Below the pieces are notes generated by a model. The model was not told where the DNA came from and did not search any database. It was given only the letters and a program-made list of their open reading frames with translations. Shown here piece by piece: positions 20,307 through 27,107 of a stretch of 64,000 nucleotides of DNA. This stretch comes from Spirochaeta thermophila DSM 6578 (GTDB taxonomy: Bacteria > Spirochaetota > Spirochaetia > Winmispirales > Winmispiraceae). Position 1 is the first letter of the stretch. Each line of letters opens with the position of its first letter. The stretch is from the NCBI RefSeq assembly GCF_000184345.1, contig NC_017583.1, forward strand, positions 868,001-932,000, read 5' to 3'. A program made the translations under genes and the position numbers.

Positions 20307-22577
20307 ATGCAGGTGAAGGATATCGTTGCACGACTTTCGCTCGAGCAGAAGGCCGCCTTGTGTAGCGGGAAGGACTTCTGGTTCACGGTGGATATTCCGG
20401 AGCTGGGGGTGAGGTCCATGCTCCTCTCCGATGGGCCGCATGGGCTCAGGAAGATGAAGGATGGGACGGAGGTGGATGCCGAGGAGATGACGGTGCCGGC
20501 GGTGTGTTTCCCCTCGGGGGTGGCGCTCGCGAGTTCCTGGGACAGGGCGTTGCTCCATGGGCTGGGCCGGGTGCTCGGCGAGGAGGCGAGGGCCGAGGGG
20601 ATCGATGTGCTCCTGGGTCCTGCGATCAATATAAAGCGCTCGCCCCTCTGCGGGAGGAACTTCGAGTACTATTCCGAGGATCCGTACCTCGCAGGCGAGC
20701 TCGCGGCGGCCTACATCCGGGGGGTGCAGGAGCAGGGGGTGGGGACCTCGGTCAAGCACTATGTGGCGAACAACCAGGAGCACCGCAGGATGAGTGTGGA
20801 TGCGGTGATCGATGAGCGCACCCTGCGCGAGATCTACCTGGCGGCGTTCGAGAGGGCGGTGAAGGGGGGCCGTCCGTGGACCGTGATGGCCGCCTACAAC
20901 CGGGTGAACGGGGCGTACTGCACGGAGAGCGCGTTTCTCCTCACCCGGCTGCTCAGGGAGGAGTGGGGGTTCGACGGGTTCGTGGTGTCCGACTGGGGGG
21001 CGGTGGACGAGATCGTGGAGGCGCTCAAGGCCGGGATGGATCTGGAGATGCCGAGCAGCTTCGGGGTGGGGCCGGGCAATCTGGTGAAGGCGGTGAGGGA
21101 GGGGCGGCTCTCCGAGGAGGTGCTCGACAGGGCCGTGGAGCGGATACTGGGTGTGCTCGCGCGGGCCGGGGAGGCCCATTCGGGTACCTACGACAAGGAG
21201 GTGCACCACCGTCTCGCGAGGGAGACGGCGCGGGAGTGCATGGTGCTCCTCAAGAACGAGGAGGGGATCCTCCCCCTCGAAGGGGTGAGGAGGGTGGCGC
21301 TGGTGGGCGCCTTTGCCCGGCATCCCCGTTTCCAGGGGGGCGGGAGCTCCCACATCAACGCCTTCAAGGTGGAGAGCCTCTACGAGGAGCTGCCGAAGGT
21401 GCTGAAGGGAGCAGAGATCTCCTATGCGCCGGGCTACGTGCTGGGGGAGGAGGGGAAGGTTGACGAGCGGCTCATCCAGGAGGCGTGCGAGGCGGCGAAG
21501 GCTGCGGAGGTGGCGGTGGTGTGTGTGGGGCTTCCGGAGGAGTGGGAGTCGGAGGGATACGACAGGGAGCACCTGGAGCTGCCCGAGAGCCACAACCGGC
21601 TGGTGGAGGCCGTGGCAGCGGTGCAGCCCCGCACGGTGGTGGTGCTCCACAACGGCGCGCCGGTGCGCATGCCGTGGCTGGGCAGGGTGAAGGCGGTGCT
21701 GGAGGCCTACCTGGGCGGCCAGGCGGTGGGGGGTGCGGTGGCGGACATCCTGGCAGGGGTGGTCTCTCCCAGCGGGAAGCTCGCGGAGACCTTCCCGCAG
21801 CGCCTGGAGGATACCCCCTGCTACCTCTGGTTCCCGGGCGAGCGGGACAGGGTCGAGTACCGGGAGGGTATCTTCGTGGGCTACCGCTACTACGACACGG
21901 TGGGGAAGGAGGTGCTCTTCCCCTTTGGGTTCGGGCTCAGCTACACCGAGTTCGCCTATACCGGGATGAAGGTGAGCGCCGGGGAAGTATCGGCCGACGA
22001 TGGACTGGTGGTGGAGGTCTCGGTGAAGAATGTGGGGAAGCGGGCCGGGAAAGAGGTGGTACAGCTCTACGTGCGGGACGTGGAGAGCTCGGTGGTGCGG
22101 CCTGAAAAGGAGCTCAAGGGCTTCGAGAAGGTCTTTCTCGAACCGGGAGAGGAGAAGACCGTGCGCTTCACCCTCGATAGGCGGGCCTTTGCCTACTACG
22201 CGCCCGAGGTGCAGGACTGGGTGGTGGAGGAAGGTGAGTTCGAGATCCTGGTGGGCGCCTCCTCGCGGGATATCCGGCTCTCGGAGCGGGTGACCGTGCG
22301 GTCGAACGATCGTGTGCCCTTCGAGGTGGGTCGGAACACCCTCCTGGGGGATCTCCTTGCCCATCCTGCCACCAAGTCCATCGGCGAAGAGGTGGTGGGA
22401 GGGCTCACCCGGCCTGGCGGCCCGATGGAAGGGATCATGAAGCGGAGCCCGAACATGGCACAGGCGATCATCAGGTACCTCCCCTTGAGGGATCTGGTGA
22501 ACTTCAGCGGGGGTGCCTTCACCGAAGAGATGCTCGCAGACATCATCGAGCGGTGCAGCGAGTCGCTTTCATCTTGA
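20307..22577 (+). CDS. GH3 beta-glucosidase/xylosidase, cytoplasmic
   Basis: A 756-residue GH3 enzyme starting directly with MQVKDIVARLSLEQKAALCS and lacking a signal peptide, so it acts on imported sugars. Visible are the barrel motifs LLGPAINIKRSPLCGRNFEY and KHYVANNQEHRR, the nucleophile in VVSDWGAVDE (D229), the second domain with QGGGSSHIN and a fibronectin III-like C-terminus. Extra residues after the FnIII domain (about 60, ending PLRDLVNFSGG and following) match the tail of many bacterial beta-glucosidases. ATG follows ATGGAGGATAT. A terminator follows at 22601. Confidence 0.92.
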   Translation: MQVKDIVARLSLEQKAALCSGKDFWFTVDIPELGVRSMLLSDGPHGLRKMKDGTEVDAEEMTVPAVCFPSGVALASSWDRALLHGLGRVLGEEARAEGIDVLLGPAINIKRSPLCGRNFEYYSEDPYLAGELAAAYIRGVQEQGVGTSVKHYVANNQEHRRMSVDAVIDERTLREIYLAAFERAVKGGRPWTVMAAYNRVNGAYCTESAFLLTRLLREEWGFDGFVVSDWGAVDEIVEALKAGMDLEMPSSFGVGPGNLVKAVREGRLSEEVLDRAVERILGVLARAGEAHSGTYDKEVHHRLARETARECMVLLKNEEGILPLEGVRRVALVGAFARHPRFQGGGSSHINAFKVESLYEELPKVLKGAEISYAPGYVLGEEGKVDERLIQEACEAAKAAEVAVVCVGLPEEWESEGYDREHLELPESHNRLVEAVAAVQPRTVVVLHNGAPVRMPWLGRVKAVLEAYLGGQAVGGAVADILAGVVSPSGKLAETFPQRLEDTPCYLWFPGERDRVEYREGIFVGYRYYDTVGKEVLFPFGFGLSYTEFAYTGMKVSAGEVSADDGLVVEVSVKNVGKRAGKEVVQLYVRDVESSVVRPEKELKGFEKVFLEPGEEKTVRFTLDRRAFAYYAPEVQDWVVEEGEFEILVGASSRDIRLSERVTVRSNDRVPFEVGRNTLLGDLLAHPATKSIGEEVVGGLTRPGGPMEGIMKRSPNMAQAIIRYLPLRDLVNFSGGAFTEEMLADIIERCSESLSS

Positions 22578-22600
22578 GAGATCGTGAGTCACACGTGCGG

Positions 22601-22627
22601 GAGGGACGGGACGAAACCCCGTCCCTC
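22601..22627 (+). terminator. Terminator after the cytoplasmic GH3 gene
   Basis: GAGGGACGGG pairs with CCCGTCCCTC around a seven-base loop, followed by TGTTT. Confidence 0.7.
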
Positions 22628-22682
22628 TGTTTGGAGTCATAATGGGTTGTGTCTTCGCCCCCCGCATGATAGTGTCGTACCA

Positions 22683-22892
22683 ATGAAAGAACAACAGAAA
22701 CAGAAGAAGCACGAGGACAAGAGCGAGCTCGCGATAGCTGGCGGGCTGATGATCGGGTTGGGGGTGGGATTCTTCTTCCTCCAGACATCGGTGTTTGCCT
22801 TTGTGGGATGCATCCTCGCGGGGCTGGGACTGGGACTCATCATCTCGCCCATCATCGCCCTGTGTGGTGGAGCACAGAAAAGCGAAGACTGA
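22683..22892 (+). CDS. Small two-helix membrane protein
   Basis: A 69-residue protein: a charged N-terminus (MKEQQKQKKHEDKSE) and two glycine-rich hydrophobic helices (AGGLMIGLGVGFFFLQ and GCILAGLGLGLIISPIIA). Family not recognised. No ribosome site precedes the ATG, yet the gene is bounded by terminators on both sides, which supports a separate transcription unit. Function unknown. Confidence 0.6.
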   Translation: MKEQQKQKKHEDKSELAIAGGLMIGLGVGFFFLQTSVFAFVGCILAGLGLGLIISPIIALCGGAQKSED

Positions 22893-22893
22893 A

Positions 22894-22913
22894 GGCAGGG
22901 AGGAGGCCCTGCC
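22894..22913 (+). terminator. Terminator after the small membrane protein gene
   Basis: GGCAGGG-AGGAGG-CCCTGCC starts 1 base past the stop codon. No T-run. The rest of 22914-23074 shows only the 10-base palindrome AGACATGTCT and no gene. Confidence 0.6.
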
Positions 22914-23074
22914 TCCGTGTGCCCTTGCGTCCTTTTCCCTCTGTCTCGAAATGCCTCAACGGTGTATGACTATACGTGGAGACATGTCTCTCTCTTCCAC
23001 TGGGTGCCTCTCTTGGGAGGGGCGCCCTCCTGACAGGTCTTCACCGATCCTTTCTGAGATCTGATATATTTCAT

Positions 23075-23102
23075 TTGACAAATCCTGGATGTGTGTTAGA
23101 AT
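23075..23102 (+). promoter_or_regulatory. Promoter of the DUF1576 operon
   Basis: TTGACA (23075-23080), 16-base spacer, TAGAAT (23097-23102). The in-frame ATG at 23089 falls inside the spacer and cannot be the start. Confidence 0.75.
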
Positions 23103-23130
23103 ATCCCGGATCTTCCGGTGGGAGCCAGCC

Positions 23131-24390
23131 GTGGAACGGAATGAACGATTTCTCTATGTGGTGATGGGGATCGTGCTCCTGGAATTCCTTGGTCTCGGCC
23201 TTGCTGAGGATGGACTGATCCAGGCGTTGAGAGGATTCGTGAGATTGCAGACCTCTCCTGCGAGGTTGTTGAACGACTTCGCCTCATGGGGTGGGGTGGG
23301 GGGAGCGTTCCTGAACGCTGTCCTCGTGGGAATCTTCGGCCTGCTCCTCATTCGATGGAGCGGCGTGCTTCTCGCAGGGCCCACCATGGCCGCGGTTTTC
23401 ACGCTGATGGGATTCGCGCTCTTCGGAAAGACCATACTGAACATCGCTCCGATCATACTCGGAGTGTACTTCTCTTCCCTCCTCATGAGAAAGCCGTTCA
23501 AATCCTACATCCTCTTCGCCCTCTTCGGTACGGCCCTCGGTCCCCTCACGACGTATCTCATCTTCGAGGTTGGACTCCCGTTGCCTCTTTCAGCCGTCCT
23601 CGGGGTGGGGGCCTCCATTCTGGTGGGTATGCTCATCCCCCCCGTGGGGGTGGCACTCCTCCACCTGCATCAGGGATACAACCTCTACAACATCGGGTTC
23701 ACCTCCGGTTTCCTTGGGCTCTTCATCGCCTCGATCCTCGATTCTGCCGACAGTCTCCTCCCCTTGGGGGTCCGTCTCCTCGAAGATCCTCCCCTTGCGA
23801 TGGTTCTGCTCGTCCCTCTCCTCTCTCTCACCCTGGTCCTCGCAGGACTCATCTTCTCCCACGGCGGGGGGTTCAGGGAGCTTCGGTCGATCCTGAGCAT
23901 CCCGGGCAGACTTCCCTCCGACTTCGTGACGATGGTGGCGCCTGGGGGAAGTCTTATGAACATGGGGCTCTTGGGCTTGGCCTCGGCGGCATATGTGTGG
24001 GTGGTGGGAGGGGCTTTCAACGGACCGGTGTTGGGGGGGATCCTCACGGTGATCGGTTTCGGTGCATTCGGGAAGACGCTCCGCAACTCCTGGCCCGTGG
24101 TCCTGGGTGTGTGGGTGAGTTCTCTCGTCTTCGGGTATGATCCGGCCTCTGCAGGCCCCCTCCTTGCGGCGCTCTTCGGGACCACTTTGGCCCCCCTCGC
24201 GGGGCAGTTCGGCCCGCTCGTCGGCTTCATAGCCGGCTTCATGCACCTGGTGGTCGTGAGCCGCACGGGGTTCTGGCATGGCGGGTTCGCCCTCTACAAC
24301 AATGGATTCGCCGGAGGATTGACCGCCTCCCTGCTGGTGGCCATCATGGAATGGTTCAAGACGCATCGTGAGGAAAGGAAGTCGTCATGA
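23131..24390 (+). CDS. DUF1576 polytopic membrane protein
   Basis: A 419-residue protein with about 10-12 hydrophobic helices. I recognise the DUF1576 pattern, a family without assigned function. Two halves repeat each other: GFALFGKTILNIAPIILGVY and GFGAFGKTLRNSWPVVLGVW, and later LYNIGFTSGFLG and LYNNGFAGGLT. An internally duplicated channel or transporter is therefore likely. GTG at 23131 is chosen: GGTGGGAG precedes it and it lies downstream of the promoter. It overlaps the next gene by 4 bases (ATGA), so the three genes to 25173 form an operon. Confidence 0.8.
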   Translation: MERNERFLYVVMGIVLLEFLGLGLAEDGLIQALRGFVRLQTSPARLLNDFASWGGVGGAFLNAVLVGIFGLLLIRWSGVLLAGPTMAAVFTLMGFALFGKTILNIAPIILGVYFSSLLMRKPFKSYILFALFGTALGPLTTYLIFEVGLPLPLSAVLGVGASILVGMLIPPVGVALLHLHQGYNLYNIGFTSGFLGLFIASILDSADSLLPLGVRLLEDPPLAMVLLVPLLSLTLVLAGLIFSHGGGFRELRSILSIPGRLPSDFVTMVAPGGSLMNMGLLGLASAAYVWVVGGAFNGPVLGGILTVIGFGAFGKTLRNSWPVVLGVWVSSLVFGYDPASAGPLLAALFGTTLAPLAGQFGPLVGFIAGFMHLVVVSRTGFWHGGFALYNNGFAGGLTASLLVAIMEWFKTHREERKSS

Positions 24391-24797
24391 TACGGAAAGA
24401 GATGATCCTTCACCTCATAGGGGAACTCGCGAACTTCAGCCTCTCCCAGGCCCCCCAGCGAATGGTGATCTCCCTCCACCAGGAAGAGGACGGACTCCAC
24501 CTCACACTCCTCGATTCAACCGTGAGGACGGATGAAGAGATCCGGCAGATTACCCAGGCCCTCAGGATACAGGACCGTCCGGAGCTGGCGGAATACTACG
24601 GAACCATGACGGGGCACGATCTTTTCGGTACCTCGAGACTCGAGATGATAGGATGGCAGGTGAAGCATGCGACAGTATCCCGGACGGAGGAGGGCACGAA
24701 GATAGACCTCTGGTTGGGGAGTGAGCGCTTCGATCCTCGCCCCTTCAGTATCCCGACCGATGATGCCGCAGAAGAGGGGGATCGGGAAGATGGATGA
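24387..24797 (+). CDS. Conserved-looking small soluble protein of unknown function
   Basis: A 136-residue soluble, acidic protein with no signal peptide or membrane segment. It has a mixed alpha/beta pattern: an N-terminal helix (MILHLIGELANFSLSQ), a strand MVISLHQEEDGLHLTLLD and a helix rich in charged residues. Family not recognised. Start and stop codons overlap its neighbours (ATGA at 24387, 8 bases at the end), so it is translated with a DUF1576 membrane protein and a deaminase-like enzyme. Confidence 0.7.
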   Translation: MIRKEMILHLIGELANFSLSQAPQRMVISLHQEEDGLHLTLLDSTVRTDEEIRQITQALRIQDRPELAEYYGTMTGHDLFGTSRLEMIGWQVKHATVSRTEEGTKIDLWLGSERFDPRPFSIPTDDAAEEGDREDG

Positions 24798-25173
24798 GGT
24801 CGCATCGCTCATAAGGGAAGCGAGGAAGTACCTCGGGGAGTTCGGATTGGCCAGGGAATGGATGACGGCAGGGGGTGTGGCTGCGGCGATACGTACTACC
24901 TCAGGAAGGATCTACACCGGGATCAGTATCGATGTTTCCTGTGGGATCGGCTTCTGTGCCGAGCATGCCGCCATCGCTGAGATGCTGAAGCATCGTGAGA
25001 CCCGTATCGAGATGGTGGTAGCAATCAGAGAAGGAGGACACATCGTTCCTCCCTGTGGGAGATGCAGGGAGTTCATGCTACAGATCAATGACGAAAACGA
25101 ACGGACCGCAGTAGTGGTGGGCGAGGATCGGGTGGTGCCTCTGAAGGAGCTCCTGCCCTTCCGGTGGTATTGA
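24790..25173 (+). CDS. Cytidine deaminase-like zinc enzyme
   Basis: A 127-residue protein of the CDA fold. The zinc site is seen as FCAEHAAIAEM (C56, catalytic E58) and PPCGRC (C89, C92), the three-Cys arrangement of tetrameric cytidine deaminases and blasticidin-S deaminases. Length is normal. The start at 24790 follows a G-rich site and overlaps the preceding gene by 8 bases; an ATG at 24721 is not supported. It could deaminate cytidine or a modified nucleoside; the operon with a DUF1576 membrane protein hints at a transported substrate. Nothing definite is seen in the 83 bases between this gene and ilvD. Confidence 0.85.
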   Translation: MDEVASLIREARKYLGEFGLAREWMTAGGVAAAIRTTSGRIYTGISIDVSCGIGFCAEHAAIAEMLKHRETRIEMVVAIREGGHIVPPCGRCREFMLQINDENERTAVVVGEDRVVPLKELLPFRWY

Positions 25174-25256
25174 GATGTCCTTCTCTCACTGCAGTGTTCT
25201 GCCTCTCCTCCCCTTCCTTCCGGTGGAGCCCCTTCCAAGGAGGACGGATCTTCCCT

Positions 25257-27107
25257 CTATCCCTCGTCAGGCAGCTTCCGTGCCGCACCGGTGTCTGCTG
25301 AGGTGGCGAGCAGGGCATAGGCCCTGAGTGCCTTCGATACGGGACGATTCCGGTGTCTGGGGGTGTAGGGCCGTTCTCGTGCCTCTTCTTCCTTCCTTCG
25401 CTGGGCGAGCTCCTCGTCGGAGAGCAGCACGTTGATCCGCCGGTTGGGGATATCGATCTCTATGACGTCGCCGTCCCGTAGGAGGGCGATCTCACCCCCT
25501 TCGGCCGCCTCGGGGGAGACGTGCCCGATGGAGAGTCCCGAGGTGCCGCCGCTGAACCTGCCGTCGGTGATGAGGGCGCACTCCTTGCCGAGGTGGCGGG
25601 CCTTGAGGTAGGAGGTGGGGTAGAGCATCTCCTGCATCCCCGGTCCCCCCTTCGGTCCCTCGTAGCGGATGACCACCACGTCTCCTGCCTTCACACGTTC
25701 GGGGTCGAGGATGCCCTCGCAGGCCTCCTCCTGCGACTCGAAGACCTTCGCAGGTCCTTTGAAGTGGAAGATGCTCGGGTCCACGCCCGCGGTTTTCACC
25801 ACGCACCCGCGTCGAGCGATGTTCCCGTAGAGGACCGCAAGCCCGCCGTCGGGATAGTAGGCGTGTTCCACGTCGCGGATGCAGCCGTTCGTCCTGTCGA
25901 GATCGAGTTCCTTGAAGTAGCTCTCCTGCGAGCCCATGGTGAGGCTCGGCCTCCCTGCAGGGGCGCTCGCATAGAGGCGCTTTGCCTCCTCGGTGGCCGT
26001 GGGACGCCTTATGTCATAGCGCGCGATGGCCTCCTCAAGGGTGAGGCCGTCCACTCTTCTCACCTCGGTGTGCAGGAGCCCTGCCCGTTCGAGTTCGCCC
26101 ATGATCCCGAGTATGCCGCCGGCTCGGTTTACATCTTCCACGTGGTATTCCGAACTGGGTGCCACCTTGCAGATACAGGGGATCCGACGGGACAGCTCGT
26201 CGATGTCCTCGAGGGTGAACTCCACCTCCGCCTCACGGGCGATCGCGAGGATATGGAGTACCGTATTGGTTGAGCCCCCCATGGCAATATCCAGGGCCAT
26301 CGCGTTCATGAAGGCCTCACGGGTGGCGATCGACCGGGGAAGGTGCCTGTCATCGCCCTCGTAGTAGTATTCTTCCACCAGATCGCAGATGCGATGCGCC
26401 GCCTGCTCGAAGAGCCTCACTCTGTTCTTGTGGGTGGCCACCACCGTGCCGTTACCCGGGAGGGCGAGGCCCAGAGCCTCGTTGAGACAGTTCATGGAAT
26501 TGGCGGTGAACATGCCTGAACATGAACCGCACGTGGGACAGGCGATCCGCTCTATGGCGGAGATCTTCTCGTCGGAGACCTCCTCGTCCGCCGCGAGGAC
26601 CATTGCGTCCACGAGGTCATACTTTTTCCCATCGAGAGCGCCCGCCTCCATGGGACCGCCGCTCACGAAGATGGTGGGGATGTTGAGTCGCATGGCCGCC
26701 ATGAGCATGCCCGGCGTGATCTTGTCGCAGTTGCTGATGCAGACCAGGGCGTCCGCCTTGTGGGCGTTCACCATGTACTCCACACTGTCGGCGATGAGAT
26801 CGCGCGAGGGGAGGGAGTAGAGCATCCCGTCGTGCCCCATGGCGATCCCGTCGTCGATGGCGATGGTGTTGAACTCGGCCGCGAAGAAGCCGCGGCTCTC
26901 GATGATCTTTTTGACATACTGGCCTATCTCGTGGAGGTGGGTGTGTCCCGGCACGAACTGGGTGAACGAATTGGCGATGGCGATCACCGGCTTGCCGATC
27001 ATCTCCTCCTTCATGCCCGCCGCCCGCCAGAGACTCCGGGCTCCCGCCATCAGCCTCCCGCTCGTGGTGATGCTGCTCCGTAAGGGGATCTTCGGTGTCT
27101 GCGCCAT
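25257..27107 (-). CDS. ilvD: Dihydroxy-acid dehydratase
   Basis: A 616-residue enzyme of valine/isoleucine synthesis that dehydrates dihydroxy acids to 2-oxo acids. Cysteines in [10 protein letters not shown] and [17 protein letters not shown] bind the iron-sulfur cluster, and the C-terminal [17 protein letters not shown] is a family signature. Length is as expected. It stands alone: no other ilv or leu genes are in the window. Its own promoter lies at 27137-27165 with an inverted repeat over the -10 box. The short upstream gap separates it from trkH on the same strand. Confidence 0.95.

Follow-up and report, generated by a model that had tools for sequence, protein, structure and literature searches.

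The conserved unit at this locus of Spirochaeta thermophila DSM 6578 is a gene pair, consisting of a DUF1576 membrane protein and a 136-aa protein encoded directly downstream of it, and not the trio that these genes form with a following cytidine-deaminase-like gene. We suggest, with a probability of about one half, that the pair is made up of a channel or receptor of the Amt/UT/RnfD type and a docking partner with a GHKL fold that gates it or relays its state, and that the deaminase is a separate local addition.

Three overlapping genes and a candidate promoter

The window, by which we mean the whole stretch of 64,000 nucleotides that was analyzed, belongs to a closed 2.56-Mb genome, and the positions given here are those of the window. 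The locus has the following features.

23075-23102, plus strand: candidate sigma-70-like promoter, TTGACA-16-TAGAAT, whose second hexamer is preceded by TG (extended -10), 11/12 in a consensus scan
23131-24390, plus strand: DUF1576 membrane protein, 419 aa, GTG start, PF07613 with 330 bits
24387-24797, plus strand: conserved partner of DUF1576, a soluble protein of 136 aa with a predicted GHKL fold
24790-25173, plus strand: cytidine-deaminase-like enzyme of an atypical clade, 127 aa, PF00383 with 25.6 bits
24023-24625, 603 bp: absent from the sister genome G001 in a blastn comparison of the window with locus L099; covers the end of DUF1576 and the beginning of the 136-aa gene

As had been read from the sequence in the original prediction, the three open reading frames lie on the plus strand and overlap by 4 bases (ATGA, 24387-24390) and by 8 bases (24790-24797). 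The GTG at 23131 matches the beginning of the family alignment and was preferred over the ATG at 23089, because the longer ATG frame would begin within the candidate promoter. The claim that one promoter serves all three genes corresponds to a consensus match to a sigma-70-like site upstream, which by itself is not evidence of function. Since 1.3 looser sites of this kind were expected in the 8-kb region scanned, we regard the single promoter as a candidate. Just upstream of this site, at 22683-22892, lies a short ORF for a hydrophobic peptide that belongs to a 102-aa frame. The overlap of DUF1576 with the 136-aa gene goes beyond chance, since these genes also abut or overlap each other in most relatives. 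The overlap of the 136-aa gene with the deaminase gene is limited to this genome and its sister, where the first two genes are broken.

Conservation of the pair

A species-level genome collection yielded 216 DUF1576 loci, and the pairing was surveyed at the best 80 of these, with all open frames searched. In 76 of these 80 loci, which come from other genera, an iterated profile found the 136-aa partner directly downstream of DUF1576 on the same strand, and in the remaining four the contig ends 0-80 bases after DUF1576. The median gap in the 76 pairs is 0, with starts taken from the profile; the two genes overlap in 37 pairs, and in 24 the overlap is exactly 4 bases. These counts use loci L016-L095 and include two loci each from two genomes (L074/L076 and L088/L089); loci L001-L015, which came from a search of relatives, partly repeat the same genomes. 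The 136-residue protein had been described as unknown, and it is present as called, but its status as a conserved partner had been missed.

A whole-genome search of 41 relatives gave a consistent picture. DUF1576 was found in 14 of them, one of which (G030) has a 29% partial match, and the partner was found in exactly the other 13, so that among these relatives it was never seen without DUF1576. Locus L014, a 29% partial match without a DUF1576 ORF, was dropped. The reverse does not hold in Bacillota. In the class to which Proteiniclasticum ruminis (L084) belongs, DUF1576 is matched in 34 of 291 genomes and in 32 of these over the cut-off; loci were obtained from 30 of the 32, and since L132 had already been counted, 29 new loci remained, 22 with the partner and 7 without it. 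Six of the seven partnerless genomes were searched whole and contained no copy of the partner (positive controls, 3/3), and the seventh locus, L165, which has a broken DUF1576, was excluded from this check. DUF1576 can therefore do without the partner. The stand-alone Bacillota genes (L155-L157, L160, L163 and L166) offer a natural test of the partner's role.

Among the neighboring families listed for the 80 loci, there is no recurrent redox partner gene, nor is a receiver or a transcription factor a recurrent direct neighbor of the pair; a response-regulator-like frame is found in 7 loci, mostly upstream and on the other strand. Separately, a gene that we take from its sequence to be guaA-like (GMP-synthetase-like) lies near the pair in 11 loci (L021, L030-L033, L036, L050, L055, L064, L071 and L077), and in 6 there is also one that we take to be carB-like (carbamoyl-phosphate-synthase-like). 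GMP synthetase and carbamoyl-phosphate synthase are glutamine/ammonia-using enzymes. These neighbors cluster in Sphaerochaeta-type genomes and are therefore probably a case of shared synteny.

The deaminase-like gene is a probable local addition

The protein encoded by the third gene reaches PF00383 with 25.6 bits against a cut-off of 25 and carries the zinc motifs CAE (residues 56-58) and PCGRC (residues 88-92), the latter of the PCxxC form, as in tetrameric cytidine deaminases (TIGR01354) and blasticidin-S deaminase. It differs from the tetrameric enzymes in falling below all NCBIfam cytidine deaminase cut-offs (TIGR01354, 52.4 vs 113.65; PRK05578, 60.6 vs 74), in having SIDV where the true cytidine deaminase of the same genome has NMEN before CAE, and in its position in a side clade. 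Its best PDB match is 3b8f (E = 8e-9), which is named putative blasticidin S deaminase, and ordinary cytidine deaminases trail by a few bits in the same search. The genome encodes RibD (357.5 bits) and, elsewhere, a true cytidine deaminase (119.7 bits vs 113.65), so that the third gene is an extra and atypical member of the superfamily. A role as the ordinary salvage enzyme was ruled out, because another deaminase of this genome is above the cytidine deaminase cut-off. A literature search on the clade gave nothing useful.

The original prediction derived the role of DUF1576 from this neighbor: the deaminase would convert a nucleoside, a modified base or a nucleoside antibiotic, and DUF1576 would import the substrate or export the product. 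The genes do overlap in this genome, the third protein does resemble cytidine and blasticidin-S deaminases, and deaminases release ammonia, while the predicted fold of DUF1576 is that of ammonia and urea channels. However, a survey of DUF1576 neighborhoods for deaminases, which had been put forward together with the prediction, found no deaminase as a neighbor in any of the 80 loci from other genera (zinc-deaminase motif and cytidine-deaminase profile; flanks up to 4 kb). As far as gene neighborhood is concerned, this is the outcome that had been named beforehand as refuting the prediction. Among all 95 loci searched, the motif or profile was matched only in this genome and in sister G001. Intact relatives of the deaminase with 54-60% identity are present in four more genomes of this phylum, and relatives with 35-47% identity occur in further ones; among the flanks listed they adjoin other, unrelated genes.

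The sister genome provides a further argument. Apart from the 603-bp deletion and a C run earlier in DUF1576 that differs in length by one base, G001 aligns to the window; the deletion destroys the pair, and the deaminase gene is intact. For the deaminase, a comparison of the two strains gives dN of 0.057 and dS of 0.29 (ratio, 0.20). In the alignment of 20902-27009 with L099, the identity is 97.6% to the left of the deletion and 92.4% to the right, and the drop coincides exactly with the breakpoint, suggesting that recombination had its border here. Because of this difference between the two sides, the deletion may be recent, and the ratio of 0.20 is therefore no proof that the deaminase has long been independent of the pair.

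In view of the neighborhoods and of a sister genome that keeps the deaminase without an intact pair, the deaminase was ruled out as part of the unit, and we consider a joint pathway of the three proteins highly improbable. The detoxification of blasticidin or another nucleoside antibiotic finds no backing beyond a weak sequence resemblance. The deaminase is probably a local addition in this genus, which shares the message of the pair but neither needs the pair nor is needed by it.

DUF1576 is a family with two homologous halves

DUF1576 belongs to PF07613 (330 bits, against a gathering score of 25), which is its sole Pfam family at E ≤ 1; the same scan gave no match to PF00909, PF03253 or PF03116. 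Judged by their profiles, it is thus a member of neither the Amt nor the UT family. No paper was found in a literature search for "DUF1576" and "PF07613," whose coverage largely leaves out subscription journals and preprints.

The two halves of the protein are homologous. Compared by hhalign, half 1 and half 2 gave a probability of 99.9 and a score of 220 over 163 columns with 31% identity, against scores of at most 20.8 in 20 column-shuffled controls. The alignment used for conservation contained P0001 and 50 of 57 non-redundant homologs, seven having been excluded as truncated or as carrying odd insertions. The repeats and their most conserved segments are as follows.

23215-23745, plus strand: first internal repeat, residues 29-205 (hhalign, half vs half)
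23668-23691, plus strand: HQGYNLYN at residues 180-187, preceding the final helix of repeat 1, identical in 51/51 aligned proteins
23860-24354, plus strand: second internal repeat, residues 244-408 (hhalign, half vs half)
24277-24306, plus strand: repeat-2 counterpart of HQGYNLYN, residues 383-392, ending in LYNNG, with L388, Y389, N390, N391 and G392 invariant in 51/51

Invariant residues recur at matching places of the two repeats: D49/D264, N62/N277, G83/G298, F98-G99/F313-G314, N104/N319, T134/T351, P138/P355 and L185-Y186-N187/L388-Y389-N390. H180 is invariant, and H383, at the matching place in repeat 2, is histidine in 39 of the 51 proteins. Two homologous halves are also a feature of the Amt/UT/RnfD structural group. 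Amt/Rh proteins are built from two inverted repeats of five helices each and have twin histidines of the pore in helices 5 and 10.

Predicted fold of DUF1576

An AlphaFold2 model built from the 51 aligned proteins had a mean pLDDT of 95.7 and a pTM of 0.94. Foldseek found nothing in the PDB at E ≤ 0.001: the best match (E = 0.034) has a different fold, the best rows are unrelated transporters, and the human urea channel 6qd5 stands at rank 38 (E = 0.44; probability, 0.63). When the top 1000 PDB matches of Foldseek were re-aligned with VIA-align 2, ranks 1-36 were all Amt/Rh/Mep2 ammonium channels or urea transporters, with Z of 13.1-10.9 and alignments of 236-259 residues at 4.1-6.2 Å; on the tool's own scale, Z of 11-13 lies in the range rated as possible for helical proteins of common arrangement, which tells against the assignment. 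Rank 37 was RnfD (Z, 8.8), and rank 38 was UlaA, which has an unrelated fold (Z, 5.0).

Sequence comparison was of less help. PDB sequence profiles gave no match, and in comparisons with Spirochaetota UT, Amt and RnfD/NqrB alignments, which contained untrimmed open frames, none of nine was significant (probability for UT, 0.1-0.2%). Because UT, Amt and RnfD/NqrB fail to find one another as well, this test has little power, and the kinship that it failed to support is rejected with this limit on its weight. An alternative to be considered is that DUF1576 belongs to a different class of secondary transporters and that the match to Amt and UT reflects a common two-repeat helical arrangement, a reading for which the absence of significant Foldseek matches and profile comparisons speaks. 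However, the top 36 of 36 VIA-align rows belong to one structural group, and the score then falls from 10.9, or from 8.8 with RnfD included, to 5.0, so that we consider another transporter class unlikely.

The match to RnfD raises the question of whether DUF1576 might be a redox protein that carries flavin in the membrane, like RnfD/NqrB, and not a channel. RnfD is the third structural group among the matches, most carriers of DUF1576 look like anaerobes from the titles of their records, and DUF1576 has a Ser-Gly-Pro-Thr stretch that resembles an RnfD-like flavinylation motif. Yet Thr85 of this stretch is kept in only 36 of 51 proteins and SGAT is found in 1 of 51, Amt and UT outscore RnfD, and the survey revealed no recurring redox partner gene; a redox function is therefore very unlikely in our judgment.

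We conclude from the model that DUF1576 probably shares the Amt/UT-type fold without detectable sequence kinship and probably works like a protein of this type. The earlier proposal that DUF1576 is a transporter agrees with this predicted fold, which is that of channels for ammonia and urea, one of the types of substrate then guessed, but the route to it by way of nucleosides and the deaminase does not hold. The same genome has two PF00909 ammonium transporter genes elsewhere, which argues against DUF1576 as its simple ammonium importer. The second of them (G000:C1:399337-400512) lies inside a 928-aa open frame and is possibly an Amt fused to a signaling module.

The partner has a predicted GHKL fold with degenerate motifs

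The 136-aa protein has no Pfam or NCBIfam match above cut-off. It is hydrophilic (GRAVY, -0.55) and hence probably cytosolic. The alignment of the family used 51 of 76 homologs in addition to the protein itself, the remainder being near-duplicates. The resulting AlphaFold2 model (52 sequences) had a mean pLDDT of 77.6, was weak at residues 61-90 and after residue 120, and had the order helix-strand-strand-helices-strand-strand. The top 50 Foldseek matches were histidine-kinase ATP-binding domains throughout, one of them at E ≤ 0.001 (9e-4). The best 50 VIA-align matches listed had Z of 6.8-8.8, middling by the tool's scale, and were headed by SiaB (6kko; Z, 8.8) and SpoIIAB (1th8; Z, 7.8). GHKL kinship was also sought by sequence and had to be rejected as not significantly supported: in a Pfam scan of the 52 proteins the commonest match was HATPase_c, in three and with a best E of 0.093; hhalign with six sequences gave a probability of 1.8%; and nine matches among PDB sequence profiles were at chance level.

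The nucleotide-binding motifs of GHKL proteins are the N-box asparagine and DxGxG, and neither is conserved in the 52 proteins of the partner family. In the N-box region, position 16 is Asn in 16/52 and position 17 is Tyr or Phe in 52/52; in the DxGxG region, D43 is present in 42/52, and position 45 is mostly Asn, Arg or Thr, not Gly. No kinase activity is predicted for this reason. The residues that are conserved instead are E13, E66, Y70, Y71 and G76. The protein thus appears from its model to be a GHKL-fold protein without recognizable nucleotide-binding motifs. The partners in L081, L083 and L094 are very divergent, and those in L083 and L094 have basic C-terminal tails unseen in the other members listed.

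The fold of the partner also fits a different arrangement, in which DUF1576 would be a receptor that does not transport: binding of a solute would be passed to the partner, which would then bind or phosphorylate a downstream target in the manner of the sensor Amt proteins or of SpoIIAB/SiaB-type switches. There is a precedent in Ks-Amt5, whose Amt domain is joined to a histidine kinase, binds ammonium without transporting it and drives the kinase (PMC5764959). The degenerate motifs of the partner and the lack, among the families listed, of a receiver or transcription factor recurring directly beside the pair argue against such a receptor, which we regard as rather unlikely.

Proposed mechanism and comparison with known systems

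The analysis shows the pair and its tight linkage, the internal repeat and conserved residues of DUF1576 and the predicted folds, and from here on we infer a pore and a class of substrate. We propose that DUF1576 is an unrecognized family of the structural group of Amt/Rh proteins, urea transporters and RnfD/NqrB. Its two halves would meet face to face in the membrane and create between them a pore, or a site that binds a small polar solute, with the residues that are repeated in both halves as its lining; ammonia-, urea- or amide-like compounds would be the first candidates. The GHKL-fold partner would dock on the cytosolic face of DUF1576 and either gate it, as GlnK does AmtB, or relay its state, as does the kinase fused to a sensor Amt, and a shared message would ensure that the two proteins are produced together.

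In bacteria, amt genes form operons with glnK, and GlnK blocks the AmtB channel (PMC4852598). The pair described here resembles AmtB/GlnK in the Amt-like predicted fold of DUF1576, in the small cytosolic protein encoded beside it in most genomes and in genes that often overlap or abut. It differs in that DUF1576 has no PF00909 match, that the gene of the partner lies downstream of that of the channel, that PF00909 proteins are encoded separately in the same genome and that the partner has a predicted GHKL fold. GlnK has the PII fold.

The urea transporters (UT/SLC14; PF03253) share with DUF1576 the two homologous halves and the predicted fold (Z, 10.9-11.9), whereas no PF03253 match or profile similarity is detectable. 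DUF1576 is placed in the same structural group as RnfD/NqrB (PF03116), but it does not match that family, does not conserve the flavinylation motif and lies outside rnf/nqr operons. The sensor Amt proteins Ks-Amt5 and Sd-Amt1 likewise combine an Amt-type membrane fold with a histidine-kinase-type module; Ks-Amt5, however, carries a full kinase within a single fused protein, whereas the genes of the pair are separate and the partner amounts to a CA-like domain whose motifs are degenerate. The best structural matches of the partner are the stand-alone switch proteins SpoIIAB/RsbW and SiaB, and it differs from them in having neither a significant sequence match nor conserved ATP-binding motifs and in being encoded with a membrane protein and not with sigma factors. 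On the basis of the two models, what appears to be new is a known channel architecture in an unrecognized family and a partner whose fold is unlike that of the known regulator.

Implications

The overlapping genes of this locus illustrate that a neighboring enzyme, here the deaminase, can mislead functional inference. Two families gain a testable, structure-based role: DUF1576 as a candidate channel or receptor of the ammonia/urea type, and a family without a name as its partner. As a tentative further step, DUF1576, which occurs in Spirochaetota, Bacillota, Fermentibacteria-type and other lineages, might be a new branch within the superfamily of ammonia and urea channels. Its dedicated regulator would then be a catalytically inactive protein of the histidine-kinase fold, and DUF1576 would be the first channel to be gated by a stand-alone pseudo-kinase domain in place of PII. 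If the proposed reading of the pair is right, small cytosolic controllers would have been recruited to Amt-type channels on two or more occasions, from the unrelated folds of PII and GHKL.
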